DNA of 64,000 bases from Spiribacter vilamensis. Its GTDB lineage: Bacteria > Pseudomonadota > Gammaproteobacteria > Nitrococcales > Nitrococcaceae. The DNA is taken from NCBI RefSeq assembly GCF_004217415.1, contig NZ_SHLI01000001.1, forward strand, positions 496,001 to 560,000, given 5' to 3'. Position numbers and translations under genes: made by a program. This document shows, one piece after another, positions 35,872 to 51,998 of this stretch; the stretch's first letter is position 1, and every line of letters begins with the position of its first letter. Under the pieces are notes generated by a model. It was not told the origin of the DNA and did no database searches. It saw nothing but the letters and a program-made list of their open reading frames with translations.

Positions 35872-37610
35872 GACGCTTCGGTGGTCTGGTACGGCTTGCC
35901 GGGTATCTGCGTCCGTACTGGCGGCAGGCGCTCATTGCCGGTATCGCGCTGATCGTCGCCGCCGGCAGTGTCCTGGGTATCGGCCAGGGATTGCGGCTGG
36001 TCATTGATCAGGGCCTCGCGAGTGGCACCGGTGCCACGCTCGACCGCGCATTACTGGTGACCGCCGGGGTCGTCCTGGTGCTGTCGGTGGCCGCGGCGCT
36101 GCGGTTCTACTGGGTCATGTGGATCGGTGAGCGCGTAGCCGCCGATCTGCGCCGCGACGTGTTCGAGCGCCTGCTCGAGCTCGATCCAGGGTTCTACCTG
36201 CGCAACGGCGTGGGGGAGATCCAGTCGCGGATGACCACGGATACGGCGCTGTTGCAGAGCGTGCTGGGCTCGACCTTCTCGATGGCCCTGCGCAATGCAC
36301 TGCTACTCGCCGGCACGCTGATCATGCTCGTGGTGACGCAACCCGCCCTGAGCGCGCTGGTCATTGCCGGGATCCCCATCGTGCTGGCACCCATGTTGAT
36401 CGTTGGCCGTCGTGTGCGGCGGCTCTCGCGGCTCAGCCAGGATCGTATTGCCGATGTCGGCAGTTATGCCGGCGAGACGCTCGGGGGGATCGAGACGGTT
36501 CAGGCCTTTGTCCACGAGCCCGTGGACCGGCGGGTTTTCGGCGATCGGGTGGAGGAGGCGTTCGCGATCGCCGTCCGCCGGATCCGTCAGCGCGCCGGGT
36601 TGAACGCCGTGGCGCTGCTGCTGGCCTTCAGCGGTGTGGCGTTCGTGCTCTGGCGAGGGGGGAGCGCCGTCATCGCCGGAGCAATGAGCGCGGGTGAGCT
36701 CTCGGCGTTCCTCTTCTACGCCGTACTGGCGGCCGGCGCCGTCGGTGTACTCTCGGAAGTGGCCGGCGAGCTGTTCCGCGCCTCGGGGGCGGCGGAGCGG
36801 CTGTTCGAGCTGCTGGATGCCGAGCCCGCCATCCAGTCCCCGAACCACCCCATTACCCTGCCGGTGCCCGCCCGCGGCGAGGTCGTACTCGAGGCGGTGG
36901 CGTTTCGCTATCCAACCCGCCCGGAGCCGCCGGCACTGACCGGCGTGGATCTGGTGGTCCATGCCGGTGAGACACTGGCACTGGTGGGTCCGTCCGGTGC
37001 CGGCAAGAGCACCCTGATCAGCCTGTTATTGCGCTTCCACGATCCGTCTTCGGGCCGTATCACACTGGATGGCGTGGATCTGCGTGATGCCGACCCGGCG
37101 GCCGTTCGCCAGCGCATGGCCCTGGTGGCGCAGGAGCCGGTGCTGTTCACCGGTACCGTCGCGGACAATATCCGCTTCGGCAATCCGTCCGCGGAACGCG
37201 ACCGGATCGTCGATGCGGCGAAGGCCGCGAACTGCCAGGGCTTTGTCGATGCATTGCCGGCTGGGCTTGATACCGATATCGGCCCCGGGGGCGTGCAACT
37301 CTCCGGTGGTCAACGGCAGCGGATCGCGATTGCAAGGGCCATTCTGCGCGATCCGGCCTTATTGCTACTCGATGAGGCGACCAGCAGCCTGGATGCCGAG
37401 AGCGAGCAGCAGGTGCAAACCGCTTTAACCCGGCTGATGACGCACCGGACCAGCGTCGTGATTGCTCACCGGCTCGCGACGGTGCGCAACGCCGACCGGA
37501 TCGCGGTGCTCGAGACGGGCACGGTGCGGGCCATCGGGACGCATGACCAGCTCATGGCAACCGACGACCTCTATGCCCATCTCGCGGCATTGCAGTTCCA
37601 GGCCGGCTAG
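35868..37610 (+). CDS. ABC exporter with fused membrane and ATPase domains (MsbA-like)
   Basis: A 580-residue half-transporter that should act as a dimer. The ABC transmembrane domain (about 1-310, six TM helices) begins RLAGYLRPYWRQALIAGIALIVAAG; the ATPase has Walker A GPSGAGKST, Q-loop VAQEPVLFTGTVADNIRFG, signature LSGGQRQRIAIARAILRDP, Walker B LLLLDEATSSLDAESE and H-loop IAHRLATV. Related proteins export lipids, peptides or drugs; the substrate is unknown. It starts with GTG, and the 3' end overlaps the convergent crtY stop by 4 bases. Confidence 0.9.
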   Translation: MRRFGGLVRLAGYLRPYWRQALIAGIALIVAAGSVLGIGQGLRLVIDQGLASGTGATLDRALLVTAGVVLVLSVAAALRFYWVMWIGERVAADLRRDVFERLLELDPGFYLRNGVGEIQSRMTTDTALLQSVLGSTFSMALRNALLLAGTLIMLVVTQPALSALVIAGIPIVLAPMLIVGRRVRRLSRLSQDRIADVGSYAGETLGGIETVQAFVHEPVDRRVFGDRVEEAFAIAVRRIRQRAGLNAVALLLAFSGVAFVLWRGGSAVIAGAMSAGELSAFLFYAVLAAGAVGVLSEVAGELFRASGAAERLFELLDAEPAIQSPNHPITLPVPARGEVVLEAVAFRYPTRPEPPALTGVDLVVHAGETLALVGPSGAGKSTLISLLLRFHDPSSGRITLDGVDLRDADPAAVRQRMALVAQEPVLFTGTVADNIRFGNPSAERDRIVDAAKAANCQGFVDALPAGLDTDIGPGGVQLSGGQRQRIAIARAILRDPALLLLDEATSSLDAESEQQVQTALTRLMTHRTSVVIAHRLATVRNADRIAVLETGTVRAIGTHDQLMATDDLYAHLAALQFQAG

Positions 37611-38767
37611 CCCGTCGGCGAATCGATCCGCACCCCGCGGTTGCGCCGGCAGGAGTGCCGCATGGCGGCCTTCAGCATGGGGGTCGGGGGGAGTGCACGC
37701 AGGATGTGGCCGATGTCCGCCAGCTGTGGCCGGCTCATGAGAAACCGTGCCATCGACTCCGGGGGCGTCCGGTCAAACAGGCGTACGAACGGCTCACCCG
37801 CTGCCCCGACAGGTCTATGCCGCCAGAGTGATTCAAGGAAGACCCCGTCCAGCCAGTCCATAAGCGAGCGCCGCGACGGGGCGCGGGGGGCCTGCCCGGC
37901 AACCAGTGCCTCCGCGCAGACATCCGCCCAGCGCTGTATATCGTGAAAGGTATACCCGGTGGCCGGGCGCATACTACCGCCTGCCGTACCGACCCGCATC
38001 CATCCTTCCTGGTCGTAGGAGGGAATCGGTGCCATGGGCAGGTGGCTCGATTCCTCCCGTACCACCGTATGCGCCGCCAGCCCGCGGTCGGCGAGGATGC
38101 GATCCAGTTGCCCCCCCAGTTCCGACAGGGAAGGGCGCTGGGGCGCGAATCGTGTCAGTTCGATCAATCGATGGCCGGGACCGATGGGCAGTTCATAAAC
38201 AAACGTCAGTAAGGGGGTGGTGTCGTCGACGAAGTCCATCAGCCGTACTGGCGATTCACCGGCAAGCCCGGGCCCGGTCAGCTCGCGGCCGACAAAGCTC
38301 TGCCATACCCACGGCCGATCCAGCGCCAGTGCCGGCGGGCGGGAATCCATAACGCGCGTGGCGGTAAGCGTTTCGCCGCTATCCAGTGTCAGTGACCAGG
38401 CCGAATCGTGGCGTTCAGCTGCCTGCAGAGCCGATCCCGCGAACAGCGACCAGTCCTGCCGGGTCCCGATCACGTCCAGCGCCTGCGCCTGGACTGCCGA
38501 CGCACGAAGCATTTCATAGGGGGTCTGGTCGCTGCCGCGGATGATCTCGCGGCCGCCGTGGCTGACGGCCCAGCGGGTCCAAATCTGCGTTGCCTGATCG
38601 ACAAAGGGGTGATCGACCAGTCGCCAGCCACACCACGTCCGATCGTCACTTGGCAACTGTCGTGGTTCGATGATCGCGATCCGTCCCGGATAGCGGGCCG
38701 CGAGTCGGACCGCCAGGCTCATCGTTGCGGCGCCGAATCCGATCAGCGCGAGATCGAAGTGTTTCAT
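37607..38767 (-). CDS. crtY: Lycopene beta-cyclase (CrtY)
   Basis: Cyclises lycopene to beta-carotene. The 386-residue flavoprotein starts with a dinucleotide fold (DLALIGFGAATMSLAVRLA) and has the CrtY segments PSDDRTWCGW, DSRPPALALDRPWVWQSFVGREL, LMDFVDDTTPLLTFVYELPIG, SHLPMAPIPS, and RVGTAGGSMRPATGYTFHDIQRWAD. The overlap with crtB is 4 bases. It closes the rhodopsin-crtE-crtI-crtB-crtY gene run. No ketolase or hydroxylase follows, so the expected end product is beta-carotene. Confidence 0.93.
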   Translation of the reverse strand: MKHFDLALIGFGAATMSLAVRLAARYPGRIAIIEPRQLPSDDRTWCGWRLVDHPFVDQATQIWTRWAVSHGGREIIRGSDQTPYEMLRASAVQAQALDVIGTRQDWSLFAGSALQAAERHDSAWSLTLDSGETLTATRVMDSRPPALALDRPWVWQSFVGRELTGPGLAGESPVRLMDFVDDTTPLLTFVYELPIGPGHRLIELTRFAPQRPSLSELGGQLDRILADRGLAAHTVVREESSHLPMAPIPSYDQEGWMRVGTAGGSMRPATGYTFHDIQRWADVCAEALVAGQAPRAPSRRSLMDWLDGVFLESLWRHRPVGAAGEPFVRLFDRTPPESMARFLMSRPQLADIGHILRALPPTPMLKAAMRHSCRRNRGVRIDSPTG

Positions 38768-39597
38768 GCCGTGGCGGCGGGGGCGTCGTCTGCCGGCCGA
38801 AACAGCGTGCGCAGGGCAAGCCGGCGCCGGTCGCGATGACTGAGTGACGTTCGTCCTTCCCAGTAACGGCAGCCACCGTCCCGCACCCGCAGGCCGATGG
38901 CGCGGTAGAGACGTGCCGCCACGCGGATGGCGACGCGATTGCGCCAGGGGATTAACGCAAACGCCGTCTCCGCCCGGGCATACTCGACCTCGGCCCGATC
39001 AACGACTCGGCCGATTGCCGCCTGCACCGATGCCCGATCAGGGTCTGCGGCTGCGGCAATAACCTCCGGCGGCCGCTGGCCAACCCATTCCGCCGGCAGA
39101 TAACGACGGCCGCGCTGCGCATCCTCGAGGACATCCCGCGCGATGTTGGTCAGTTGCATGCCGATACCGAGGGCAACAGCGGCATCCCGACCGCGCACGG
39201 GATCGGCACCGAGTAGTGGGCACATGAGCTCGCCAACCGTACCGGCAACGCCGTAGCAGTAGTCGATGAGCTCGGATTCGGTGTCGATGAGACGGCCGTA
39301 TCGGGCTTCATGGGCGGCGGTACGGGCCAGCGTCGCCAATGGCTCGAGCCGCATCTGCCGGCGCTCGACCATCGCCTCGAAGCCATCCACCGGTATTTTC
39401 GCCAGTTCGCCGGTGGTGAGCGCCTCAATGAAGGTATCGATACGGCCGGCGCCATTCGCGGACTCGTCCGCGATGTCGTCGATCAGCCGGCAGACGGCAT
39501 AGAGAGTGGCGACATCATTGGCATCGTCGCGCCGCAGGAGCCGGCTCGCCATGTGGAAGCTGCTCCCATGGCGGGCCAGTACCTCACGGGGCTTCAC
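38764..39597 (-). CDS. crtB: Phytoene synthase (CrtB)
   Basis: Condenses two geranylgeranyl diphosphates to phytoene. The 277-residue protein has the first Asp-rich motif DDIAD at 40-44 (VCRLIDDIADES), YCYGVAGTVGELMCPLLG, and the second motif in LTNIARDVLEDAQRGRRYLPAEW, all diagnostic of squalene/phytoene synthases. The start overlaps crtI by 4 bases. Confidence 0.95.
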   Translation of the reverse strand: MKPREVLARHGSSFHMASRLLRRDDANDVATLYAVCRLIDDIADESANGAGRIDTFIEALTTGELAKIPVDGFEAMVERRQMRLEPLATLARTAAHEARYGRLIDTESELIDYCYGVAGTVGELMCPLLGADPVRGRDAAVALGIGMQLTNIARDVLEDAQRGRRYLPAEWVGQRPPEVIAAAADPDRASVQAAIGRVVDRAEVEYARAETAFALIPWRNRVAIRVAARLYRAIGLRVRDGGCRYWEGRTSLSHRDRRRLALRTLFRPADDAPAATA

Positions 39598-41066
39598 GCC
39601 GCCTCCGTTCCCTCGGGGAACAGGCGCTCGAGGACCTTTGCGCTGGAGAGCACCCCGGGCATGCCGGCACCGGGGTGGGTTCCCGCCCCAACGAGGTAGA
39701 GGTTATCGAGTCCCTCGGCCTGGTTGTGGAAGCGGAACCAGGCCGACTGCCGGAATAGCGGCGCCAGACTAAAGCCACTGCCGTAGACGCTCTGGTAATT
39801 CTCGCGGAAATTATCCGGCGTCATGTGGAAATCGGCGCGGATATGCTGGCTGAGCCCTGGAAGGATGGTTGCTTCCAGCGCCTCGACAATACGCGCCTGC
39901 AGTTTCGGTCCTTCCACCGACCAGTCGATATTACCCAGCTGGTTGGGTACGGGAGCCAGCACGTAAAAGCTGTCGTGCCCTGCCGGTGCAAAGCTCGGAT
40001 CGGTCGCCGTGGGGCGATGGAGATACAGCGAGAAATCCTCGGAGAGGATCTTTCGATCAAAGATGTCCCGCAGCAGCTCCTTATAGCGCTCGCCCAGCCA
40101 TATGGTGTGGTGGGCGACGTCGGGATACTGGCAGTCGGTACCGAAGTAGAGCACGAACAACCCCATCGACGAGTGGGCCAGCCGCTGCTTGACCCGGGCC
40201 GCCATGGGGGCCGGATCCATGAGTTCGCCGTAGAGGTGCATCGGGTCGAGGTTGGAGACGAAGTTATCCGCCTTGATCGTGCGCCCGTCGTCAATGCTCG
40301 CCCCGGTGATGCGCCGTCCATCGCGATGGACCGCCGTAATGCTGCGGCCGTTTTCCACCCGTACACCCTGGCGCTCGAGCAGATTGGCGAGTTCGCCGAC
40401 GAGTGCACCGGTTCCGCCCATCGCGAAGTGGACACCCCACTCACGCTCGAGGTAGTGGATGAGTCCGTAGATACAGGTCGTATCGAACGGATTTCCGCCC
40501 ACGAGCAATGGCTGCAATGACAGCGCCTGGCGCAGGTACGGGTGCTTGATATGGCTCGACACCATCTTCCAGACGCTCCGGTCGAAGCGCAGTCGTAGCA
40601 GCCGGGGAATCTGGCGCGCCATGAACGAGGCCCGATGGAATGGCTGGTAGCCGAGTTCCTTGAACCCGATCTCGAAGAGCTCGCGGGACTCTGCAAGCAG
40701 GCCGTGGTAACCGGCGACATCGTCCGGGTTGAAGCGGGCGATTTCGGCCTCCATTCGCTCGATGCCCGGACCGTAATCAAATGAGGAGTCATCGGCGAAG
40801 CGGAATCGATACCATGGATCGAGCGGCCGGAGTTCGAGGTGATCGTGCAGTGATTCACCGAACAGTTCGAACAGCTCGGTGAAAAGGAATGGTGCGGTAA
40901 TGACCGTTGGTCCCGCGTCGTGCCGGTAGCCGCCGCGCTCGAAGACCTGTGCCCGTCCGCCGAGTCGCGGGCAACGATCGATCAGTGTGACCTCGTGGCC
41001 CCGTGCGCGCAGGCGCAATGCCGCGGCGATGCCGCCGAAGCCGCCACCCATAATCAGGGAATGCAT
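39594..41066 (-). CDS. crtI: Phytoene desaturase (CrtI)
   Basis: FAD-dependent desaturase taking phytoene to lycopene. The 490-residue protein starts with the dinucleotide fold LIMGGGFGGIAAALRLRARGHEVTLID and has GGRAQVFERGGYRHDAGPTVITAPFLFTELF, MGGTGALVGELANLLERQGVRVENG, and the CrtI signature YLVGAGTHPGAGMPGVLSSAKVLERLF at the C-terminus. It is 6 bp downstream of crtE. Confidence 0.96.
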   Translation of the reverse strand: MHSLIMGGGFGGIAAALRLRARGHEVTLIDRCPRLGGRAQVFERGGYRHDAGPTVITAPFLFTELFELFGESLHDHLELRPLDPWYRFRFADDSSFDYGPGIERMEAEIARFNPDDVAGYHGLLAESRELFEIGFKELGYQPFHRASFMARQIPRLLRLRFDRSVWKMVSSHIKHPYLRQALSLQPLLVGGNPFDTTCIYGLIHYLEREWGVHFAMGGTGALVGELANLLERQGVRVENGRSITAVHRDGRRITGASIDDGRTIKADNFVSNLDPMHLYGELMDPAPMAARVKQRLAHSSMGLFVLYFGTDCQYPDVAHHTIWLGERYKELLRDIFDRKILSEDFSLYLHRPTATDPSFAPAGHDSFYVLAPVPNQLGNIDWSVEGPKLQARIVEALEATILPGLSQHIRADFHMTPDNFRENYQSVYGSGFSLAPLFRQSAWFRFHNQAEGLDNLYLVGAGTHPGAGMPGVLSSAKVLERLFPEGTEAA

Positions 41067-41072
41067 TGGATG

Positions 41073-42029
41073 TTATCCCTCCTGTCGGGACTTGTGATTC
41101 AGCCGTTCTATCAGTTGGCGCACGTCGCTCAGGAGGGGCTCCGGCAGTCGCGCACTGAGTCGGTCGGCGCGGTTCAGTGCCGCGCGAGCATGTTGGAGGC
41201 AACGGATGCGGGTTGGTTCCCGGTGCAGGTGAACTGACCCACTCCGAGTGCGGGGGCGGTGGTGCCACCAGGCATGCAGTGGGTGCAGCTCCGAAACATC
41301 ATCGACACCGTCAAGGTCGTCCAGATCGTCAAGAATCTGGTAAGCGAGCCCGATGGCTTCAGCGATACGCCGACTGACTGCGGACGTATAAGCGGCCTTC
41401 GCGGGTTCGCTGATCCCGGCGTTGAGCGCCAGCTCGATCAGCGGCGCTGTCTTTTCGCGGGTTGCGTCGAGATAGTCGGCGGTTCGGACGGATCCCTCAC
41501 CAGTGTGGTGGCTGAGCTCGACACTCTGGCCGCCGATGACACGGCCAGCCGTATCCGCCATGAAGCGTATCAGCCGCTGCGACACCGCCGGTACGGTAAT
41601 CCGCGCGGCGACCTGGAAGGCTGTCGTCAACAGGAGATCGCCCGCACACAGCGCCACATCATCCCCGTACACCGCGCGAACCGATTGTCGGCCCCGGCGG
41701 TAGGTATCGCGGTCGCTGATGTCGTCGTGAACGAGCGATGCATTGTGCAGAAACTCGCAGGCAGCGGCCGCTGCCGTACGGTCTTGAGGGCTCAAGCGAT
41801 TCGCGCAGCTGGCGAGTGCCAGTCTTGCACGCATTCGATGGCCACCCGTCTGGAGATGATAGATCGCAGCATCGCGGGCCGGTGTGGCTCGCATCGCGGC
41901 GAGTTGGTCGACCATGAACTGGTCAACGGTCTGAAGTGCCGGAAGGTTGGCCCCGACAGCCAGCGCATCCTGTCGGACAGAGACGTCCGGATCAGGTTGG
42001 AGTATTTGGCTGACATCGACTGTGGCCAC
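41073..42029 (-). CDS. crtE: Geranylgeranyl diphosphate synthase (polyprenyl synthetase, CrtE)
   Basis: Supplies GGPP for carotenoids. The 318-residue protein has the first Asp-rich motif DDISD at 102-106 (LVHDDISDRDTYRRGR) and the second DDLDD at 234-238 (YQILDDLDDLDG), plus GGHRMRARLAL at the IPP site. The chain-length region before the first motif (CEFLHNASLVHDD) fits a short-chain synthase. First carotenoid gene after the rhodopsin; the 102-bp gap between them holds a strong hairpin. Confidence 0.93.
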   Translation of the reverse strand: MATVDVSQILQPDPDVSVRQDALAVGANLPALQTVDQFMVDQLAAMRATPARDAAIYHLQTGGHRMRARLALASCANRLSPQDRTAAAAACEFLHNASLVHDDISDRDTYRRGRQSVRAVYGDDVALCAGDLLLTTAFQVAARITVPAVSQRLIRFMADTAGRVIGGQSVELSHHTGEGSVRTADYLDATREKTAPLIELALNAGISEPAKAAYTSAVSRRIAEAIGLAYQILDDLDDLDGVDDVSELHPLHAWWHHRPRTRSGSVHLHREPTRIRCLQHARAALNRADRLSARLPEPLLSDVRQLIERLNHKSRQEG

Positions 42030-42131: not shown

Positions 42132-42902
42132 TTAGGCGTTGGCGGTTTCGCCTGCTGCCTCGGCCTCTGACTTGCGCATTGCGATCGTCAGAATGACCAC
42201 GCCGAACACGGCCTTGGCGGTGATATCCGCAATCGTGTAGCCCACTTCGACTGCCGTCACGGCGGCGCCGCCGGTCAGACCGATGAGCGGGAACAGGAAC
42301 ACGATCGGGTAGAACAGCCAGGACACAATCACCAGCGTGGAAGCGCCGTTGATCAGCCCGCGCACGTTTTCCGGCTGCTTGGCGATGGAAGCCTTCAGAC
42401 CGGTCACGAGCGTGTAGACGATGTACACGAACGGAATCATCGACAGCACCCAGAACAGGAAGCGGACGGCACCGCCCTCTGAAACCTCACCCGGGTAGCC
42501 GAGGATGATCATGAGTGCGGCTGCACCGCCGAGCTTGACGCTCTGCGAGATCGTCTCGCTGCGCGACAGCCGCATAACCAAGATCAGCTCTACGAGCAGC
42601 AGCGGCACGGTCAACAGCCAGTCCACATAGCGGTAGGCCTGGTTGTAGCCGTAGCCAGTCGTCTCGATCGTCCCGTTGGTGACGCTGAACGCCGCTTCCC
42701 AGGAAGTCATGATCTGGAAGTAGTGGTAAGCGGCAATCGCGGTAACGAGGCCGGTGATGGTGATTGCCAGCCGATAGGCCGGAGCCACCTGGCTGCGTGA
42801 AAGCCAGAAGAAAAGGGTCGCGGCCGCCATTACTGCAAAGCCGAATGAGAAGCTGTTTGCAATAAAGTCGTACTGACCCACGCTAAGTGTCGAAAGGTCC
42901 AT
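42132..42902 (-). CDS. Xanthorhodopsin-like light-driven proton pump
   Basis: A 256-residue seven-helix microbial rhodopsin. The helix-C motif RYVDWLLTVPLLLVE has Asp94, Thr98 and Glu105 (the D-T-E set of outward proton pumps) and Leu102 at the tuning site, which predicts green absorption. Lys230 (TIADITAKAVFG) binds retinal, and His60 is the counter-ion partner. GQYDFIANSFSF, LGYPGEVSE and IPF match xanthorhodopsin closely. Trp151 stands where xanthorhodopsin has Gly156, the residue that makes room for the carotenoid antenna, so an antenna is unlikely. Start ATG follows AAAAGGAGGAAATCACC, an excellent ribosome binding site. Heads the crtEIBY operon. Confidence 0.95.
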   Translation of the reverse strand: MDLSTLSVGQYDFIANSFSFGFAVMAAATLFFWLSRSQVAPAYRLAITITGLVTAIAAYHYFQIMTSWEAAFSVTNGTIETTGYGYNQAYRYVDWLLTVPLLLVELILVMRLSRSETISQSVKLGGAAALMIILGYPGEVSEGGAVRFLFWVLSMIPFVYIVYTLVTGLKASIAKQPENVRGLINGASTLVIVSWLFYPIVFLFPLIGLTGGAAVTAVEVGYTIADITAKAVFGVVILTIAMRKSEAEAAGETANA

Positions 42903-43117: not shown

Positions 43118-45010
43118 ATGAGTCTGATTCGCCTTGATGAGATCGAGTTTTCCGTCGGCGGGCCACCGCTGCTCGAGCATGCGTCGCTGACGATCGAAGA
43201 TCGCGAACGCGTCTGTCTGGTAGGCCGTAACGGCGTTGGCAAATCAACCCTGTTACGCGTCATCGAGGGTGCGATCGAGCCCGATGCCGGGCGCGTCCAG
43301 CGCGGTGAGGCGGTCACCGTCTCGCGCCTTGAGCAGGCCGTGCCGGATCACCTCGAGGGGCGGGTTTTCGACGTCGTGACCGAGGGGCTGGGCGATCTCG
43401 GATCGCTGCTCTCGCGTCATCATGACCTCGCCATGGCCATTGGCGCCGGTGAGGGGGATATCGACGAGCTAACGGATCTGCAATCGCGCATTGAGGCGGC
43501 CGGTGGCTGGCAGATCGAGCAGCGCGTGGACGCCGTACTGACCCGCTTCGACCTGCCCGCAGACAGTGCCTTCTCGAACCTCTCCGGCGGGCTCAAGCGG
43601 CGCGTGCTTCTCGCTCGTGCCGTAGTGCCGGGGCCTGACGTGCTTTTGCTCGATGAGCCGACCAACCATCTCGACATCGAGGCGATCCGCTGGCTCGAGG
43701 GCTTCATGCGCGAGTTCAACGGTGCGGTGATCTTCGTGACCCATGATCGCGCCTTCCTCCAGGCGGTTGCCACCCGGATCGTGGAGATCGACCGCGGACA
43801 GCTCACGAGCTGGCCCGGCGACTACGCCAACTACCTGCGTCGCTGCGAGGAGCGGGACCACGCGGAGGCCGAGGAGCAGGCGCGTTTCGACAAGAAGCTC
43901 AAGCAGGAAGAGGCCTGGATCCGGCAGGGCATCAAGGCCCGTCGCACGCGTAACGAGGGTCGTGTTCGTGCCCTCCAGGCCATGCGCAAGGAACGCGCCG
44001 AGCGCCGTGAACGCCCGGGCGAGGCGCGGCTGACCATGGCGGAGGGCGAGCGCTCCGGCAAGCGCGTGATCGAGGCCGAGCATCTGACCTACGCCATCGA
44101 TGGCAAGCCGCTGGTGACCGACTTCAGCACCCGCATCATCCGTGGTGACCGGATCGGCATCCTGGGTCCGAATGGCGTGGGCAAGACCACGCTGATCCGG
44201 CTTCTGGTCGGTGAGCTGGCGCCGGATAGCGGGTCGATCAAGCTCGGCACCGGGCTGCAGGTCGCCTATTTCGACCAGCACCGGGCGTCACTGGATGACC
44301 GCCGCTCCGCTCGCGAGAATGTCGCCGGCGGCGAGGACTTCATCGATCTGGGTGATGGCAAACGCCGGCACGTTATGGGCTATCTGCAGGACTTCCTGTT
44401 CTCGCCCGATCGCGCCAACGCACCGATCAGCCGCCTGTCCGGCGGTGAGCGCAACCGGCTGCTGCTCGCCCAGCTGTTCGCCCGACCCTCCAACCTGCTG
44501 GTGCTCGACGAGCCCACCAACGATCTGGATGTCGAGACGCTCGAGCTCCTCGAGGAGCGACTGGTGGACTACACCGGCACGCTGTTGCTGGTCTCCCATG
44601 ACCGAACATTCCTGGATAACGTCGTCACTAGCGTGTTCGTGCCGGAAGGTGGGGGCCGTATCGGTGAGTACGTGGGTGGCTATGCCGACTGGCTGCGGCA
44701 GACGCAGCAGCCCGCCCGCAGCGAGGGCAAGGCCTCGAAAACCGCTGGCAAGCCGGCATCGTCGCCGAAAAAGCCACGCAAGCTGACCTACAGTGAGGGC
44801 ACTGAGCTCGACGAGCTGCCGGCCCGGATCGAGACCCTCGAGGCGGTTGCCGAGACCGCACGGGCGAAGGCCAATGATCCCGGGCTCTACCAGCAGGACG
44901 CGGACACGATCCAGGCTACGCTGGATGCGCTCGAGGCCGCCGAGGCCGAACTGTCCACCGCCTACGAACGCTGGGAGTACCTCGAGGCGCAGCGCGAACG
45001 CCTCGGCTAG
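43118..45010 (+). CDS. uup: ABC-F ATPase (Uup)
   Basis: A soluble 630-residue protein with two ATPase domains and no membrane domain. Walker A motifs are GRNGVGKST and GPNGVGKTT, signatures NLSGGLKRRVLLARAV and LSGGERNRLLLAQLF, and Walker B motifs VLLLDEPTNHLDIEAI and LLVLDEPTNDLDVETLELLEE. The linker (KKLKQEEAWIRQGIKARRTRNEGRVRALQAMRKER) and the C-terminal coiled coil (about 560-630) are typical of Uup, which acts on ribosomes and affects transposon excision in E. coli. The ATG follows TTAAGGAGACCGA. Its TAG stop shares CTAG with the convergent gene. Confidence 0.93.
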   Translation: MSLIRLDEIEFSVGGPPLLEHASLTIEDRERVCLVGRNGVGKSTLLRVIEGAIEPDAGRVQRGEAVTVSRLEQAVPDHLEGRVFDVVTEGLGDLGSLLSRHHDLAMAIGAGEGDIDELTDLQSRIEAAGGWQIEQRVDAVLTRFDLPADSAFSNLSGGLKRRVLLARAVVPGPDVLLLDEPTNHLDIEAIRWLEGFMREFNGAVIFVTHDRAFLQAVATRIVEIDRGQLTSWPGDYANYLRRCEERDHAEAEEQARFDKKLKQEEAWIRQGIKARRTRNEGRVRALQAMRKERAERRERPGEARLTMAEGERSGKRVIEAEHLTYAIDGKPLVTDFSTRIIRGDRIGILGPNGVGKTTLIRLLVGELAPDSGSIKLGTGLQVAYFDQHRASLDDRRSARENVAGGEDFIDLGDGKRRHVMGYLQDFLFSPDRANAPISRLSGGERNRLLLAQLFARPSNLLVLDEPTNDLDVETLELLEERLVDYTGTLLLVSHDRTFLDNVVTSVFVPEGGGRIGEYVGGYADWLRQTQQPARSEGKASKTAGKPASSPKKPRKLTYSEGTELDELPARIETLEAVAETARAKANDPGLYQQDADTIQATLDALEAAEAELSTAYERWEYLEAQRERLG

Positions 45011-46230
45011 TCGTCGATCAGCTCCGTGTCGATGACAACCGTTGATTCAAGCGTGCGGTGAACGGGGCACTTGTCGGCGATCTCGAGCAGCCGCTGGCGA
45101 TCGTCCGCGCCGAGATCGCCGCCCAGGTGGATCCGGCGCTGGAATACGTCGACTTTTGCGCCGGACTCACCGCAGTGCTCGCAGTCGGTGCGATGTTCCT
45201 TGTTGTGGCTGACGTCGGTATAGACGTGATCGAGGGCGATCCGCTTGCGGCGAGCGTACATTCGGATCGTCATGCTTGTGCACGCCCCCAGGCCGGCGGC
45301 GACGAGCTGATAGGGAGAGGGTCCTTTATCCGTGCCGCCCATTTTTACCGGCTCGTCCGCGGTCAGCAGATGCGGGCCGGATACCGTAATGGCCTGGCGA
45401 AACCCCTCCGGATCGACCTCCGAAACCCGCGTCACGCCCTCCGGCGTCGCTGCGAGGGACGAGTCGTCCGCCATCTGCAGATAGCGCACCGCCCACGCGC
45501 CGAGGACATCGGCGGCATAGTCGGCGTCGGCACCGCGGCTGATCAGATGATCGGCGTTATCCAGCGTGACGAAGCTCTTCGGATGCATCGCGCCCTGGAA
45601 AATCTCCGCCGCATTGCGAATGCCGACCAGGGTGTCCTGGGGGGAGTGGAGGACGAGCAGCGCGGCGTTCATGTGCTTCAGGGCGTCATCGAGCTTCGCC
45701 TCGGTAATATCGTCGATGAACTGCTGGCGGATGCGAAACGGCCGTCCGGCCAGGTTGACCTCGGCCTCGCCGTGCGTATCGATCGCCGCCAGCTGCTCGG
45801 CGAAGAGCTTCGAGACATGGCTTGGATCCGCCGGTGCCGCGATGGTCACGACGGCACGGACCGTGTCGATCAGCGGGGCGGCCTTGATAACCGCCGAGCC
45901 GCCCAGTGAATGACCGATCAGCAGCTGCGGGGCGGCGACATGTTCGGCCAGATAGGCAGCTGCACGCTGCAGATCTTCCACGTTCGAACTGAAATTGGTG
46001 TTCTCGAACTCGCCCTCGGAGTGACCGAGCCCGGTGAAGTCGAAGCGCAGCACCGCGATCCCCTGCGCGGCAAGGCGGCCGGCAATACGGCGCGCGGCGG
46101 GGATATCCTTCGAGCAGGTAAAGCAGTGGGCAAACAGCGCGGCGGCACGGACCGGGCCGTCGGGCAGGTCGAGTCGGGCGTTGAGCGTGTCGCCGTCGTG
46201 ACCGGTGAAGGTGATTTTCCGCGTGCTCAT
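45007..46230 (-). CDS. Alpha/beta hydrolase fused to OsmC domain
   Basis: A 407-residue fusion. Residues about 1-250 form an alpha/beta hydrolase with nucleophile elbow LIGHSLGGSA and an Asp and His in LHSPQDTLVG and LDNADHLI. Residues about 270-405 form an OsmC/Ohr-like domain with the two reactive-Cys regions LGACTSMTIRMYARRK and DKCPVHRTLES, which in Ohr and OsmC reduce organic peroxides. An extra CEHCGESG occurs between them. The fusion is a known family of unproven substrate. It is the last gene of the blh-ynj operon, 1 bp after DUF3047. Confidence 0.92.
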   Translation of the reverse strand: MSTRKITFTGHDGDTLNARLDLPDGPVRAAALFAHCFTCSKDIPAARRIAGRLAAQGIAVLRFDFTGLGHSEGEFENTNFSSNVEDLQRAAAYLAEHVAAPQLLIGHSLGGSAVIKAAPLIDTVRAVVTIAAPADPSHVSKLFAEQLAAIDTHGEAEVNLAGRPFRIRQQFIDDITEAKLDDALKHMNAALLVLHSPQDTLVGIRNAAEIFQGAMHPKSFVTLDNADHLISRGADADYAADVLGAWAVRYLQMADDSSLAATPEGVTRVSEVDPEGFRQAITVSGPHLLTADEPVKMGGTDKGPSPYQLVAAGLGACTSMTIRMYARRKRIALDHVYTDVSHNKEHRTDCEHCGESGAKVDVFQRRIHLGGDLGADDRQRLLEIADKCPVHRTLESTVVIDTELIDD

Positions 46231-46231
46231 G

Positions 46232-46888
46232 TCATTCCCCCATTAACCGGATGGTCCCGTAGATCGCCTCGGCGCGATCTCCGGTGTCGTCACAATCGGT
46301 CATGATCGCCAGTGTGTCGATTTCAGTGATGTCGCGATCATGAAAACGCGCAAAATCCTCGCGCAGGTTGCGTCGATGGATCTGCCAGCCCGAGTCGCTG
46401 TCGGCGCCATCGACGGCAACCATCATTGCCTGATCGGCATAGGCGTTGGGCCAGTGATCACCCTTTGCCGTGCGAGTGGTCGAGACATAGTTCATGGCGC
46501 GGGTTCGCCAGCGCAGGATCGGGCTTTCGTCCACGGCATAGAGCCGCGCGGCGTAATCGTCGCCGTTTTTATTGCGCGGGGCACCGGAGGCGATCGGCTC
46601 GACAATACGCCAGCGCCACTCGATGATCGGCGTGCGGGTGAGATCGATTCCCTCGCGGTAAATGAGTCCGGAGGCGGTACCTTCCTCGCACTCGGCGCGT
46701 ACGCCCCGGTGCGCACTGCGCTGGGATAGCGTGTAATCGGTCTCGCCGCTGAAGCTGTGGCGTTCCCAGCCGATGATGGAGGCCGGTTCGAAGGTGATGT
46801 CCGTCCGAGCCTCGGCAGCGGGCGCAAGCGTCGCCGCGATCAACAGCATAGCGGTGGGCACGTCGAAGGCGGGTCGTCTGCGGTTCAT
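46232..46888 (-). CDS. DUF3047 exported protein
   Basis: A 218-residue protein with a signal peptide (MNRRRPAFDVPTAMLLIAATLAPAAEA) and a DUF3047 domain: GLIYREGIDLTRTPIIEWRWRI, GDDYAARLYAV, and the C-terminal EIDTLAIMTDCDDTGDRAEAIYGTIRLM. The beta-rich fold is of unknown role. The start overlaps the ynjD stop by 4 bases, so it is in the same operon as the YnjBCD transporter and may act in the periplasm with it (inference). Confidence 0.88.
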   Translation of the reverse strand: MNRRRPAFDVPTAMLLIAATLAPAAEARTDITFEPASIIGWERHSFSGETDYTLSQRSAHRGVRAECEEGTASGLIYREGIDLTRTPIIEWRWRIVEPIASGAPRNKNGDDYAARLYAVDESPILRWRTRAMNYVSTTRTAKGDHWPNAYADQAMMVAVDGADSDSGWQIHRRNLREDFARFHDRDITEIDTLAIMTDCDDTGDRAEAIYGTIRLMGE

Positions 46889-47535
46889 GCAATGGCTCCT
46901 TCACCCAGCGGAATCGTCGGCCCGCCCGCGGCCCTGGCGTCGGCGGGGTCATGGGTCACGAGCAGTGCGGGGATCGATCGGTCCCGAATGTGGTTGAGGA
47001 CGAACGCCCGGATGTCGGCGCGCAGCGTTTCGTCAAGCCGCGAGAAAGGCTCGTCGAGCAGGATCGCTTCGGGCTCGGCGAGCAGGCTTTGCATCAGCGC
47101 GGCGCGTGCCCGCTGGCCACCGGACAGCGTCGCCGGATCACGCCGGCGCATGCCGTCGAGCCCCGCCGAGGCGAGTGCCCGATCAACCGCCTTGGCGCGG
47201 GCTTGGCGCCCCTTCACGCCCGAGCGCAGGCCGAATGCCAGATTATCTCCGACGCTCAGGTGCGGGAACAGCGTGGCGTCCTGGAACATCAGTCCGATGC
47301 GTCGCCGTTCGGCGGGCAGGCCGTTGAGCAATCGACCGTTGAGGCGAAGGGTACCTTGCAACGTGAAAGATTCGGCGAGATGACCTGCAATCGCATGCAG
47401 CAGTGTCGTCTTACCGACGCCGGACGGCCCCATCAGGGTCGTAATCGTGCCCGCGCCGATATCAAGCGTCAGCGGTGCGAACAGCGGATCACCCCCCGGT
47501 GGCTGGATCACCATCGAATCGATCGCCAGCGACAT
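46885..47535 (-). CDS. ynjD: ABC transporter ATP-binding protein (YnjD-like)
   Basis: A 216-residue ATPase with Walker A MGPSGVGKTT, Q-loop LMFQDATLFPHLSVGDNLAFGL, signature TLSGGQRARAALMQSLLAEPE, Walker B AILLDEPFSRLDETLRADIR and H-loop VTHDPADA. The order permease-ATPase after a YnjB-like binding protein and a CDP-alcohol transferase matches E. coli ynjFBCD, though the ATPase is also close to ThiQ. The start MSLAIDSM was chosen for its GAGGGAGTAA ribosome binding site; a longer frame is the permease C-terminus in another frame. Confidence 0.85.
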   Translation of the reverse strand: MSLAIDSMVIQPPGGDPLFAPLTLDIGAGTITTLMGPSGVGKTTLLHAIAGHLAESFTLQGTLRLNGRLLNGLPAERRRIGLMFQDATLFPHLSVGDNLAFGLRSGVKGRQARAKAVDRALASAGLDGMRRRDPATLSGGQRARAALMQSLLAEPEAILLDEPFSRLDETLRADIRAFVLNHIRDRSIPALLVTHDPADARAAGGPTIPLGEGAIA

Positions 47536-47540
47536 GGCGG

Positions 47541-49211
47541 TTACTCCCTCAGAAAGCGGCGGTTCCGCGCCCGGATAATCGGCGTAATGATCGCGACGGT
47601 ATAGACCAGCAGCGGGATCAACGTTTGCAGCATGGCATAGACCGCCGTAATCCGGCGATCCGCGCCGGAGGCAAGGCTCACCGCCTCGGTGGTTAATGTG
47701 CTGAGCCGCCCGGCACCCATGATCAGCGTGGGCAGATACTGGGCGATGGAAACCGCGACACCGATGGCGATAGCGGCGAGGATCGGGCCGATCAGTACAG
47801 GCAGCTTGACGCGCAGTAGACGGCTCAGCGGTCCGGCACCGAGTGAGGCGGCCTGGTACGTGAGCATCGGATCGAACCCCCGCCACGGACCGACGAGTAC
47901 CAGCAGGACATAGGGGAAGACGAACAGTAGATGCGCCCAGCTCACTGCGAGAATCCCCGCATCGATGCCGAGCTGCAGGAACCCGAACTGCAATCCTGGC
48001 AGAAAGCCGATCTGCGGCAGTAGAAGCGGGAGGTAGACAATGCCCGCAAGCATCGATGATCGTCCGCGCCGCTCCGTCTCCAGCCAGGCAATAGCGAGCA
48101 CCAGCGCCGCAATGGTGGTTATGCCCGCGAATAACAGGCTATGACCGAACGGTCCGGTCCAGTCATTGCCGGATTGCCGCCATGCCGCCAGTGAAAACTG
48201 CTCGGGGAAGCGCTGCGGCCACGGCCAGCGCCAGGTGACCGACCAGACCAGCAGGGCGGTGATTGCCATTCCCCCGAGAGCGAAGAGCACGCGCACGCCA
48301 ACCCGTCCCATCGCCAGTAGCGGGGTGACGAATCGGTCGCGTCCACCTCGGCGTAGCCAGATCCGCCCGGTGACTGTGATCAAGCGCTCCATTAGCCAGA
48401 CGCCGGCGAACGCGGTCATGACCAGCCCTGCCTGCAGCAGTGCGCCTGCCCCGGCGGTCAGCAGGCTGGAGAGCGCCGGATCCGTGTAGAGCCGCAGCAC
48501 CACGACCGCCAGCACGGGCGGGTTCGACGGGCCCAGGAGTAATGCCATATCGACGTTGGAGAGCGCGTAACTGAGCACGATCAGCGTCGGCAGCCGGATG
48601 TGCGGCCAGAGTCGCGGCAGAACCACTCGCAGCCACGCCGATGCGTTGCTGTAACCAAGGGATCGGGCGGCAATCAGCCAGCGTCGAACGGGGAGATGGC
48701 CCAGCGAGGCGGTCATCACCAGTGCCAGGAAGGGGATTTCCTTGAGCAGCAGCCCGAGGATAAGGCCAATCCCCATCGGATCCCCCACCAGTGCAAAGGA
48801 CGGCGGCTGCGAGAGTTGCAGTGGCTCGGCCAGCAGGCGGAAGAGCCACCCGGAAGGCGCAATGATGAAGGCCAGTCCGATCGCGATGGCGGCGTGGGGA
48901 GTTGCCAGGAAGGGCGCAAGCAGCGGTGTCAGGCGCCGACCCGCCGGCGTCCCGTAGAGGCCGGCGACAAAGGCGAACGCCAGCGCGAAGCCGACGATGG
49001 TGGCGGCGATTCCTGTCCAGACCGTCAACTGGATTGATGTGACAAGCCCGGGGCGATCGAGCAGCGCGACCCAGGGAGCGACCCCGATGCTGCGCTCGCC
49101 CAGCGCCGGCAGCCAGCCAAACGCCGCGGTCAGTGTCTGGGTCACCCCGAGCAGTACCGGCCCGATAATGACCGCGATAACCAGGGTGCGCAGGCCCGTG
49201 CGCAGCAGCAT
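47541..49211 (-). CDS. ynjC: ABC transporter double permease (YnjC-like)
   Basis: A 556-residue membrane protein with two fused permease units, about 12 TM helices in all. Each half has its own coupling loop: AARSLGYSNASAWLRVVLPRLWPHIRLPTLIVLSYALSNVDMALLLG and QAASLGAGPLSRLLRVKLPVLIGPILAAIAIGVAVSIAQYLPTLIMGAG. This fused layout occurs in YnjC, ThiP and FbpB; YnjC is preferred from gene context. It lies 14 bp after ynjB. Confidence 0.85.
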   Translation of the reverse strand: MLLRTGLRTLVIAVIIGPVLLGVTQTLTAAFGWLPALGERSIGVAPWVALLDRPGLVTSIQLTVWTGIAATIVGFALAFAFVAGLYGTPAGRRLTPLLAPFLATPHAAIAIGLAFIIAPSGWLFRLLAEPLQLSQPPSFALVGDPMGIGLILGLLLKEIPFLALVMTASLGHLPVRRWLIAARSLGYSNASAWLRVVLPRLWPHIRLPTLIVLSYALSNVDMALLLGPSNPPVLAVVVLRLYTDPALSSLLTAGAGALLQAGLVMTAFAGVWLMERLITVTGRIWLRRGGRDRFVTPLLAMGRVGVRVLFALGGMAITALLVWSVTWRWPWPQRFPEQFSLAAWRQSGNDWTGPFGHSLLFAGITTIAALVLAIAWLETERRGRSSMLAGIVYLPLLLPQIGFLPGLQFGFLQLGIDAGILAVSWAHLLFVFPYVLLVLVGPWRGFDPMLTYQAASLGAGPLSRLLRVKLPVLIGPILAAIAIGVAVSIAQYLPTLIMGAGRLSTLTTEAVSLASGADRRITAVYAMLQTLIPLLVYTVAIITPIIRARNRRFLRE

Positions 49212-49225
49212 CAGGACACGTGGGG

Positions 49226-50443
49226 CTATCGGGTGTAGCGCTGTGACCAGGCCTCGACCAGCCGTGTCATCCAGCTCGGATGCGGCTCGGGCAGGGTCTG
49301 CCCCAGGGCCTCTCGTGATGGCAGAGCCGGCGCGTCGGGGAGCGACTCGAAGCGGGCGCGGGCGGTTTCATCGAGGCGATCGAAGTCGAGCACCGAGAAC
49401 GCGCCCAGCACGTCGATATCCTGCATCCGCGCCTGGGCCCGGGGCGAGAGCAGAAAGTTGGCGACCACCTTCGCGCCGGCGGTGTGACGCGCATTGTAGG
49501 GAATGGCAACAAAGCTGACATTACCGATGCTGCCGCCTGCCGGGACGATGACCCGGGCACTCTCGGGCAGTAATCCCTGCTGGATGGCGGCGGCGGTGGA
49601 GGCCGGATCGAACGACATACCGATATCGACCGCGCCATCGTTGAGGAGCTGCTGTTGCTCGGACTCGTTCGCCGGAAATGTCCGTCCGCTCCGCCAGAGA
49701 TGCGGGCGGATCCGGTCGTACCAGCTCCAGAGTGGGTCGGTGGCGGCCTCGAAATCCGCTTCGGCGACCGGGCGCTGGAGTACCGTCGGGTCCGGCGTCA
49801 ATTCGACCAGCGCCTGTTTGAGAAACGTCGCCCCCATGAAGTTATCCGGATGCGGATGGGTGAAGCGGCCCGGATGGGCCCGTGCCCAGTCCAGCAGCGC
49901 GGGCATGCTGCGGGGCGGGTCTTCGACCCGCGCGCTATCGTAGTTGAATACGAACCGCGCCAGGCGCCAGGGGCTCTCGAAACCCTCCGTGGGAACCGTA
50001 AAGTCGGTCGTGCTGGCGGAGCCGGGGCTGAGATCGAGATAACGGCTGTTGGGCAGTTCCCGGACAAACGGCCCGTGGAGAAGATCCTGTTCTTTCATCG
50101 AGAGGAAGTTCGGCCCGTTAATCCAGAGCAGATCCACCGATCCCGATTCGTCGCGTCCAGCCGCCTTTTCAGTGACCACGCGGGTGACGGCGTCGCTGGT
50201 ATCCGAGAGCTTTACGTGACGGATTGCGACACCAAAGCGCTGCTCGGTCTGCTCGCCCACCCACTCGATGAAGCGATTAGTGCGGCTGTCACCTCCCCAC
50301 GCATTCCAGTAGACCGTCTGGCCGCGGGCGTCTGCCCGTGTCTGTACCCAGTCCGCCTCGGCCGACTGCGGCGTCTCGGCCATGGCGGCGCCGCTGCCGA
50401 CGAGCATGATGATCAGCCACAGCACGACCGGAAGCTGTCTCAC
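49226..50443 (-). CDS. ynjB: ABC transporter solute-binding protein (YnjB-like)
   Basis: A 405-residue periplasmic protein with a signal peptide (MRQLPVVLWLIIMLVGSGAAMA) and the COG4134 pattern: GQTVYWNAWGGDSRTNRFIEWVGEQ, SVDLLWINGPNFLSMKEQDLLHGPFV, FVFNYDSARVEDPPRSMPALLDWARAHPGRFTHP, and WMTRLVEAWSQRYTR at the end. The substrate of YnjBCD is not established. It overlaps ynjF by 4 bases. Confidence 0.88.
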   Translation of the reverse strand: MRQLPVVLWLIIMLVGSGAAMAETPQSAEADWVQTRADARGQTVYWNAWGGDSRTNRFIEWVGEQTEQRFGVAIRHVKLSDTSDAVTRVVTEKAAGRDESGSVDLLWINGPNFLSMKEQDLLHGPFVRELPNSRYLDLSPGSASTTDFTVPTEGFESPWRLARFVFNYDSARVEDPPRSMPALLDWARAHPGRFTHPHPDNFMGATFLKQALVELTPDPTVLQRPVAEADFEAATDPLWSWYDRIRPHLWRSGRTFPANESEQQQLLNDGAVDIGMSFDPASTAAAIQQGLLPESARVIVPAGGSIGNVSFVAIPYNARHTAGAKVVANFLLSPRAQARMQDIDVLGAFSVLDFDRLDETARARFESLPDAPALPSREALGQTLPEPHPSWMTRLVEAWSQRYTR

Positions 50444-51063
50444 GAGGCCGCCCCCGTGCCACCGAATGCCTTCATCCCCTGGGCCCAGCGGGTGAACGTC
50501 GTAATCAGACAGGCGATGGCAAAGCCGTAGGCGATCTCGGCGAAGTAGCCCGGGAATACACAGATAGCGATTAGGAATACAACGGTTTCAGTGCCTTCCG
50601 TCAATCCGCTCAGGTAATGGATGCCCTTGCCGGTGTACGCCGAGGCCGGCAGCCCATGCTTTTCCGCGATCACCGCGAAGGCGAGGAACGACGATCCCGT
50701 GCCGACGAATGACGTGATGACAACGGCGGCGGCAAGTGCGTTGCCGGCCGGGTCGGCAATCGCGAAGGCGAGCGGGATCGTCGCATAGAAGAAGAAATCG
50801 AGCGCGATGTCCAGAAACGCCCCCCGATCCGTCGGCGTGGTCAGGCGGGCGACCTCGCCGTCCAGGCCGTCCATCAATCGATTCAGCATGATCAGCACGA
50901 GGGCAGCGAAGTAGGCCTCGTTCATGATCAGCGGCAGGGCGCCCAGACCGAGGGCGAAGCCGGTCAGTGTCAGCGTGTCGGCCCGGCCGCCACGCGCTAC
51001 GATCTGGCGAGCCATGGGCACCAGGATTCGATGCTGGAGTGGCTGTAGCGCGGCGTCCAGCAT
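50440..51063 (-). CDS. ynjF: CDP-alcohol phosphatidyltransferase family protein (YnjF-like)
   Basis: A 207-residue membrane protein with about six TM helices. The CDP-alcohol motif is MDGLDGEVARLTTPTDRGAFLDIALD, with all four Asp and the Gly-Ala-Arg set in place. It transfers a phosphoalcohol group from a CDP-lipid or CDP-alcohol; the substrate is unknown. E. coli ynjF lies in the ynj cluster too. The gene starts 3 bp after the blh stop. Confidence 0.88.
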   Translation of the reverse strand: MLDAALQPLQHRILVPMARQIVARGGRADTLTLTGFALGLGALPLIMNEAYFAALVLIMLNRLMDGLDGEVARLTTPTDRGAFLDIALDFFFYATIPLAFAIADPAGNALAAAVVITSFVGTGSSFLAFAVIAEKHGLPASAYTGKGIHYLSGLTEGTETVVFLIAICVFPGYFAEIAYGFAIACLITTFTRWAQGMKAFGGTGAAS

Positions 51064-51066
51064 CCC

Positions 51067-51930
51067 TCATTCCGCCCGATGCGGGCTGGCGATGAATTCG
51101 AGAATCATGTGCGGCACGGTCAGCGCGGCGAGGCCGATAAAGATCACCTGCATGAGGATGGCATCGCTGGGCAGGTTGATCAGAAACGGCACCGCAGCGA
51201 TTGCCAGCGCGTAGGTCGCCAGCGTTGTTGGCGCCACCGCCCGCAGGCGTTCGCGCCAGCCTTGCAACCCCAGGTCCCGCGCCGCCAGCTCGAGATGACG
51301 GGGGCTGTGGAGGAAGCACCAGTAGGCGATGAAGTAGGCCAGCGGATGCAGGAGCGCGGCACCGGCCGCGAGCAGGAGCGGATCCCGCCAGTCACTGGCA
51401 GCCCGGTCGGCATTGAGTGCAAGCGCGCCGAGCAGGATAGCGCCGCCCACTGCCAGCGCCCAGGGCGCAGCGGCGATGATCAGGCCGGTCTGATCGGCGC
51501 CGAGCATCGCGAACAATGGCTCGACCGTTCCCGGATGAAACGTGACGGGCAGCCCGAGTATCCAGAGCCCGTACCCGATACCGCCGATCCGTCCCAGCCG
51601 ATGCGCGACATCATCGCCGAAATGCACCGCGGAATAGAGCAGAAAGGCGCCGAGGGCGATATTCGGAATCTGCAGCCAGATGGCGATAACGATCCCGCTC
51701 AGTGCCATGTACCCCACCAGGAAACCGACCAGGCGCGGGAAGCTGTTCAAGTGCAGGTAGCGCCTGGCCACTTCTGTATCAAGACTGCCGTGCGGCAATC
51801 CCAGCACGGCGGTGCTGATTGCAAGGACAACGTACAGCGGCCATTGCCCGGGTAGCAGGGAAATCCCCAGCGAGAGCAGCAGACCGACGGGGAAAAGCCA
51901 GTAAGCGGGGGGACGGTACGATTGATCCAT
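51067..51930 (-). CDS. blh: Brp/Blh family beta-carotene 15,15'-dioxygenase
   Basis: Cleaves beta-carotene to two retinals. The 287-residue integral membrane protein has eight or so hydrophobic segments and the His residues of the family: VLGLPHGSLDTE, SAVHFGDDVAHRLG, CFLHSPRHLELAA, and the C-terminal LTVPHMILEFI. The start MDQSYRPPA was chosen because it follows a GGAAAGGGG; a frame from 51993 would add 21 residues. It should supply retinal to the rhodopsin 8 kb away, but heads the ynj operon rather than lying in the crt cluster. Confidence 0.93.
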   Translation of the reverse strand: MDQSYRPPAYWLFPVGLLLSLGISLLPGQWPLYVVLAISTAVLGLPHGSLDTEVARRYLHLNSFPRLVGFLVGYMALSGIVIAIWLQIPNIALGAFLLYSAVHFGDDVAHRLGRIGGIGYGLWILGLPVTFHPGTVEPLFAMLGADQTGLIIAAAPWALAVGGAILLGALALNADRAASDWRDPLLLAAGAALLHPLAYFIAYWCFLHSPRHLELAARDLGLQGWRERLRAVAPTTLATYALAIAAVPFLINLPSDAILMQVIFIGLAALTVPHMILEFIASPHRAE

Positions 51931-51998
51931 GGGGACTGCCCCTTTCCGGTTGAGCGATTCACGATCGATAGTTTGAGAGAATACCAAAGGCATCGCCT

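Follow-up and report, generated by a model that had tools for sequence, protein, structure and literature searches.

The rhodopsin gene in this window (the whole stretch of 64,000 nucleotides that was analysed) very probably encodes an ordinary subgroup II xanthorhodopsin, that is, a light-driven outward proton pump which works with retinal only and whose carotenoid slot would be closed by Trp151 together with other residues. Reasoning from the sequence, we consider it well supported that this rhodopsin carries no carotenoid antenna. Subgroup II pumps with Trp156 (PMC3646047) and an antenna-free xanthorhodopsin of Spiribacter (PMC3832224) are in the literature since 2013. The present result extends a published property of the subgroup to a further species.

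The rhodopsin gene and its product

The gene and its ribosome-binding motif are located as follows.

42132..42902, minus strand: rhodopsin gene of the XR clade, 256 amino acids plus stop (771 bp); open reading frame and translation, Pfam Bac_rhodopsin 146.5 bits
42912..42917, minus strand: AGGAGG ribosome-binding motif, 9 nt upstream of the rhodopsin ATG (sequence)

The reading frame begins with an ATG at 42902 and its TAA stop ends at 42132 on the minus strand, which is exactly the span that an earlier note on this DNA had assigned to the gene. The protein has no family match in NCBIfam. With phmmer we queried the PDB chains and obtained 235 bits for psXR, 235 bits for the xanthorhodopsin of Salinibacter (XR), 226 bits for GR and 215 bits for Kin4B8. 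In a MAFFT alignment the protein is 50% identical to XR, 44% to GR and 48% to Kin4B8. The closeness to Salinibacter xanthorhodopsin claimed in the earlier note is thereby borne out, and the motifs which it had pointed to (GQY, DWLLTVPLL, LGYPGEVSE and LSxIPF) are all found in the protein. An AlphaFold2 model calculated from a 27-row alignment has a mean pLDDT of 91, and a Foldseek search with this model ranks psXR, XR, GR and Kin4B8 first, at an rmsd of 1.1–1.7. The alignment also locates the Asp/Thr/Glu motif of the pumps and the retinal lysine, namely D94, T98, E105 and K230.

The carotenoid slot

Four codons of the gene are of particular concern for the antenna.

42450..42452, minus strand: codon TGG of Trp151, at XR Gly156 (carotenoid fenestration); alignment and sequence
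42438..42440, minus strand: codon of Met155, at XR Thr160; aligned residue, position computed from the reading frame
42315..42317, minus strand: codon of Leu196, at XR Gly201 (polyene slot, helix F); aligned residue, position from the reading frame
42297..42299, minus strand: codon of Phe202, at XR Tyr207 and Kin4B8 Tyr204; aligned residue, position from the reading frame

The phmmer alignments pair the segment RFLFWVLSMIPF of the query with RGLWGFLSTIPF of XR (3ddl), RIIWGTVSTIPF of GR (6nwd), RLMWGVLSTVPF of Kin4B8 (7ytb) and RIVWGAVSTVPF of psXR (9wfa). They are ungapped from Trp151 to the Pro-Phe six and seven residues further on. Since no gap intervenes up to this Pro-Phe, Trp151 corresponds to Gly156 of XR, Gly178 of GR and Gly153 of Kin4B8. 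The earlier note had placed W151 at the position of XR Gly156 and had proposed an alignment as the check; both the phmmer and the MAFFT alignments agree with the placement. The site and the residue before it read WG in the references and FW in the query, and many relatives have Trp-Trp. We also considered an alternative alignment with a Gly at the site and ruled it out, as phmmer, BLAST and MAFFT all put the Trp under XR Gly156.

The fenestration of XR is described as formed by Gly156, which replaces the Trp of many microbial rhodopsins (PMC13093654). For GR it is reported that the variant G178W does not bind canthaxanthin and exceeds the wild type in stability and in pumping, and that a Trp occupies the site in 24% of 150 GR homologues (PMC9151804). 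For Kin4B8 it is reported that a residue bulkier than Gly153 prevents zeaxanthin binding and that the exchange S208A brings binding down to 2% of wild type (PMC12308411). The assertion of the earlier note that a Trp at the fenestration is known to block binding thus has its published counterpart in homologues, in the G178W variant of GR and in the bulkier variants of Kin4B8 Gly153.

The remainder of the slot is changed as well. By alignment, Thr160, Leu194, Leu197 and Ala198 of XR are Met155, Thr189, Ile192 and Val193 in the query, and Gly201 and Tyr207 are Leu196 and Phe202. The residues Ser208 and Tyr209, which anchor zeaxanthin in Kin4B8, are Leu206 and Ile207, as read off the phmmer alignment. 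Therefore neither a keto-type nor a hydroxy-type carotenoid site is preserved. A Tyr at XR 207 is reported to be conserved across the known carotenoid-binding rhodopsins (PMC12308411). Of the two residues expected of an antenna-bearing xanthorhodopsin, Gly at XR 156 and Tyr at XR 207, the query has neither. Part of the slot is not lost, as Ile205 and Ser159 of XR are kept as Ile200 and Ser154.

Conservation among relatives and history of the site

A rhodopsin match is present in 14 of the 23 genomes of the family search, our own included, and in 12 of the 14 within the genus. All 12 rhodopsin-bearing genomes of the genus (14 were searched) have Trp at the site; in one of them it was read from two contig-end fragments. 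With Trp in 12 of 12 genomes, a sequencing slip at Trp151 is ruled out.

A scan of named genomes returned at least 593 stretches, at least 580 of which encode relatives, and the best 80 were kept. The pooled set, including these best 80 of at least 580, holds 96 proteins, 53 with Trp and 43 with Gly. Two fragments (L014 and L015) and one distant paralogue (L016) were left out, which gives 93 proteins including the query, 50 with Trp and 43 with Gly. Because the rows are related to one another and this sample, with its best 80 of at least 580 relatives, lies nearest to the query, the following counts are descriptions and not tests: Met at XR 160 is found in 50 of the 50 Trp proteins versus 12 of the 43 Gly proteins, Gly at XR 201 in none of the 50 versus 32 of 43, and Phe at XR 207 in 36 of 50 versus 2 of 43.

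The paralogue L016 (C9:40160-40837) is a second rhodopsin in the genome of a family member (G002). It has Asp-Thr-Thr rather than Asp-Thr-Glu, its closest PDB chain is 4hyj, and it lies about 25 kb from the XR-clade gene of the same genome.

We calculated a maximum-likelihood tree of 98 rows, including five references, from which the trait columns had been removed; its relatives again include the best 80 of at least 580. With this sampling the 93 proteins split from the five reference XR-clade proteins with a support of 100/100. The query thus stands apart from XR and GR, as is expected of subgroup II, and on its side of the tree are also the rows of Loktanella and Sulfitobacter (Roseobacteraceae); the Octadecabacter sequences themselves are outside the tree. 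Within the tree of 98 rows the query falls into a set of 21 rows which all have Trp (support 100/98) and which consists of the query's genus, Halomonadaceae, Marinobacter, Arsukibacterium and two MAGs. A clade of 32 rows with Gly (sphingomonads, Brevundimonas and others) is likewise on the query's side, apart from the five references.

On this tree the site changes between Gly and Trp three times (bootstrap range 3–4; shuffled mean 32.9), and the well-supported branches alone force only one change. It is possible, and we entertain it tentatively, that Trp is the ancestral state of the branch and that the Gly of some relatives is derived, with an antenna regained; the query protein would then never have had an antenna to lose. 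The first-branching row on the subgroup II side (L068) does have Trp, as do rows of five phyla, and three changes suffice overall. Against this, the root was set on five reference proteins which bear Gly, forks are open (20 of 94 inner branches), the well-supported branches force a single change, and the relatives sampled are the best 80 of at least 580. We are more doubtful of a further proposal, that the subgroup II side has seen repeated switches of the site between Gly (open) and Trp (closed), accompanied by the second-site changes Thr160Met, loss of Gly201 and Tyr207Phe.

Within Wenzhouxiangella one species has Trp and a closed site (L068) and another has Gly and an open site (L048). The two branch far apart; this speaks for acquisition on separate occasions and not for a point change.

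Genes for antenna pigments

The antenna-free reading of the query can also be compared with the pigments that its host could make. Profiles of known ketolase and hydroxylase families were run against the entire genome, which has two contigs and a completeness rating of 100%, and absence is judged by these profiles. For PF00487 (CrtW/CrtR type) nothing in the genome is above the cut-off, with one piece below the threshold, and the same is true of PF04116 (CrtZ type); neither family is above its cut-off in any of the 14 genomes of the genus. PF00067 (P450) has no match in the whole genome. Among 14 control genomes PF00487, PF04116 and P450 are above cut-off in 5, 2 and 7, respectively, and in several related genomes PF00487 and PF04116 recover CrtW-like and CrtZ-like genes.

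PF01593 has eight matches in six proteins of the genome, one of which is the CrtI of the window. The other five are a protoporphyrinogen oxidase and a D-amino-acid dehydrogenase, both above the cut-offs, and three FAD proteins without assignment. For none of these five amine-oxidase-type proteins does the CrtO model give a match at E = 1e-5, and the CrtI of the window is distant from it (60.9 bits, cut-off 1000). The earlier note had observed that the crt operon lacks a ketolase; this holds, and genome-wide there is no gene of CrtW or CrtO type above the family cut-off. A missing ketolase alone is, however, weak evidence against an antenna because the antenna of relatives can be a hydroxylated xanthophyll, zeaxanthin for example. 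As there is no hydroxylase candidate above the cut-offs either, the route to hydroxy-xanthophylls is closed.

We also compared the relatives for CrtZ-like genes. Eleven PF04116 regions were picked by frame length and score, and the remaining matches were taken for other fatty-acid-hydroxylase proteins. Inspection by eye of length and histidine motifs left nine, and two (L191 and L196) were judged not to be CrtZ. The nine we presume to be CrtZ-like from PF04116; seven of them have no family match in NCBIfam. Two of four CrtW-like proteins have NF045690 as their best NCBIfam model, with 229 and 218 bits, below its cut-off of 350. CrtZ-like matches occur in 7 of 11 Gly genomes versus 2 of 10 Trp genomes (Fisher p = 0.08; 21 genomes, rows related), and in Massilia, which has Trp, a CrtW-like gene is present along with a CrtZ-like one. 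The association falls short of significance, and with related rows and the exception of Massilia we do not use it as support.

It is very unlikely that the protein uses an antenna in spite of Trp151, be it that the carotenoid binds in another way or that a xanthophyll, hydroxylated or scavenged, serves instead. The carotenoid does differ between pumps of the XR clade (zeaxanthin and lutein are reported for Kin4B8, salinixanthin for XR), and the host may share its brines with makers of such pigments. These points are outweighed by the block which a bulky residue at the site imposes in GR and Kin4B8 (PMC9151804, PMC12308411), by Leu206 and Ile207 in place of the Kin4B8 anchors, by the loss of Gly201 and Tyr207 of XR, and by a genome with no xanthophyll-making candidate above the cut-offs.

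Genes for retinal

The genes for making retinal are present in the window. The rhodopsin gene is followed on the same strand by crtE, crtI, crtB and crtY, and blh, also on this strand, is found about 8 kb upstream of where the rhodopsin gene starts.

41073..42029, minus strand: crtE, geranylgeranyl diphosphate synthase type, 318 amino acids; PF00348 128.7 bits, NCBIfam below cut-off
39594..41066, minus strand: crtI, phytoene desaturase family; TIGR02734 549 bits, cut-off 238
38764..39597, minus strand: crtB, squalene/phytoene synthase family; PF00494 172 bits, no NCBIfam equivalog at cut-off
37607..38767, minus strand: crtY-type lycopene cyclase; PF05834 148 bits, NCBIfam below cut-off
51067..51993, minus strand: blh, beta-carotene 15,15'-dioxygenase (makes retinal); TIGR03753 155.8 bits, cut-off 95, and PF15461

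The Pfam match of crtE stops at residue 241 of 318. A frameshift was considered and ruled out, as tblastn finds the same C-terminus and the same match length in relatives of the genus.

Twelve of the 14 genomes of the genus have both rhodopsin and blh, and two have neither (G019, 98% complete, and G016, 74%). As the two genes are absent together from the same genomes, the photosystem looks to be gained or lost as a unit. Two blh matches each are found in two genomes of the genus (L100 and L109 in G013, L097 and L110 in G014); the other ten blh-bearing genomes, including that of the query, have one. The copies far from the rhodopsin gene (L109 and L110) are 83% alike and closer to each other than to the copies near it; the question of the antenna is not touched by this comparison of blh.

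The neighbourhood of blh (46885-51993, minus strand) contains a gene for a CDP-alcohol phosphatidyltransferase and one for a PRK11622-type ABC transporter binding protein, and permease and ATPase frames, apparent by eye, adjoin it. One would not expect a gene for retinal synthesis in such surroundings. A further frame on the minus strand (45007-46230) has a hydrolase-like N-terminal and an OsmC-like C-terminal part, both below the NCBIfam cut-offs.

That the protein is a proteorhodopsin can be practically dismissed: the layout of opsin, crt genes and blh resembles that of proteorhodopsin clusters, as is noted for subgroup II in PMC3646047, but PDB chains named proteorhodopsin reach at most 91 bits (for chloride and sodium pumps the highest score is 106 bits) against 215–235 bits for psXR, XR, GR and Kin4B8, and no proteorhodopsin is among the top 50 matches listed in the fold search. 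By bit score the protein is nearer to XR, GR and Kin4B8 than to the proteorhodopsins, and the structural ranking agrees. The 98-row tree held no proteorhodopsins and has no bearing on this choice.

Proposed function

We suggest that the subgroup II xanthorhodopsin of this window works in the following way. The protein would be a pump of seven helices in which, by alignment, D94 serves as proton acceptor and counterion, E105 as proton donor and K230 as the lysine that binds retinal. The retinal would be made from beta-carotene by way of the products of crtE, crtI, crtB and crtY and by Blh. Trp151 is predicted to pack beside the retinal ring, where antenna-bearing xanthorhodopsins have Gly, and could fill the space of the carotenoid ring. 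Together with Met155, Val193, Leu196 and Phe202 it would close the slot. With a closed slot, only light absorbed by retinal would drive the pump. In the open-licence papers we found no binding or pumping experiments on this protein.

One aligned residue and a few slot positions go far in predicting an antenna. The co-variation of the slot residues with Gly or Trp could help to predict which pumps of the XR clade harvest light via carotenoids. Some caution with annotations is appropriate: the database name xanthorhodopsin does not imply a carotenoid antenna.

Comparison with known systems

Vollmers et al. (2013) defined the subgroup II xanthorhodopsins, the majority of which are reported to have Trp at 156 and which as a subgroup are reported to lack the slot (PMC3646047). 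The query resembles them in its XR-clade pump residues, in its opsin beside genes for retinal and beta-carotene, in Trp at XR 156 as in most members and in a slot which is not conserved. The conserved genes for retinal synthesis are in the window (crtE-crtI-crtB-crtY and blh) without crtO, and five of the six slot positions are altered, as Thr160, Leu194, Leu197, Ala198 and Gly201 have become Met, Thr, Ile, Val and Leu. There are also differences. Ile205 is described in PMC3646047 as different in all members of subgroup II, whereas the query keeps it as Ile200. The Octadecabacter xanthorhodopsins of subgroup II keep Gly at 156, where the query has Trp; according to the same paper they pump protons, and salinixanthin binding was not seen despite the Gly.

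The nearest published case is the xanthorhodopsin of the streamlined halophile Spiribacter, which Lopez-Perez et al. (2013) assign to subgroup II and which seems antenna-free (PMC3832224). It very probably comes from the genus of the query and shares with the query the subgroup, the genes crtE, crtI, crtB and crtY in the cluster, a streamlined genome and the presumed lack of an antenna. In that report one strain has blh inside the cluster and the other has it at a distance; the blh of the query is about 8 kb off.

The two antenna-bearing systems share the scaffold and differ at the carotenoid. The xanthorhodopsin of Salinibacter ruber (3DDL) has 50% identity, the same fold and the same pump residues as the query, but its salinixanthin site of Gly156, Thr160, Gly201 and Tyr207 is replaced by Trp151, Met155, Leu196 and Phe202. 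Kin4B8 (8I2Z) is likewise an XR-clade pump, with 48% identity, and its reported zeaxanthin site of Gly153, Tyr204, Ser208 and Tyr209 is met in the query by Trp151, Phe202, Leu206 and Ile207.
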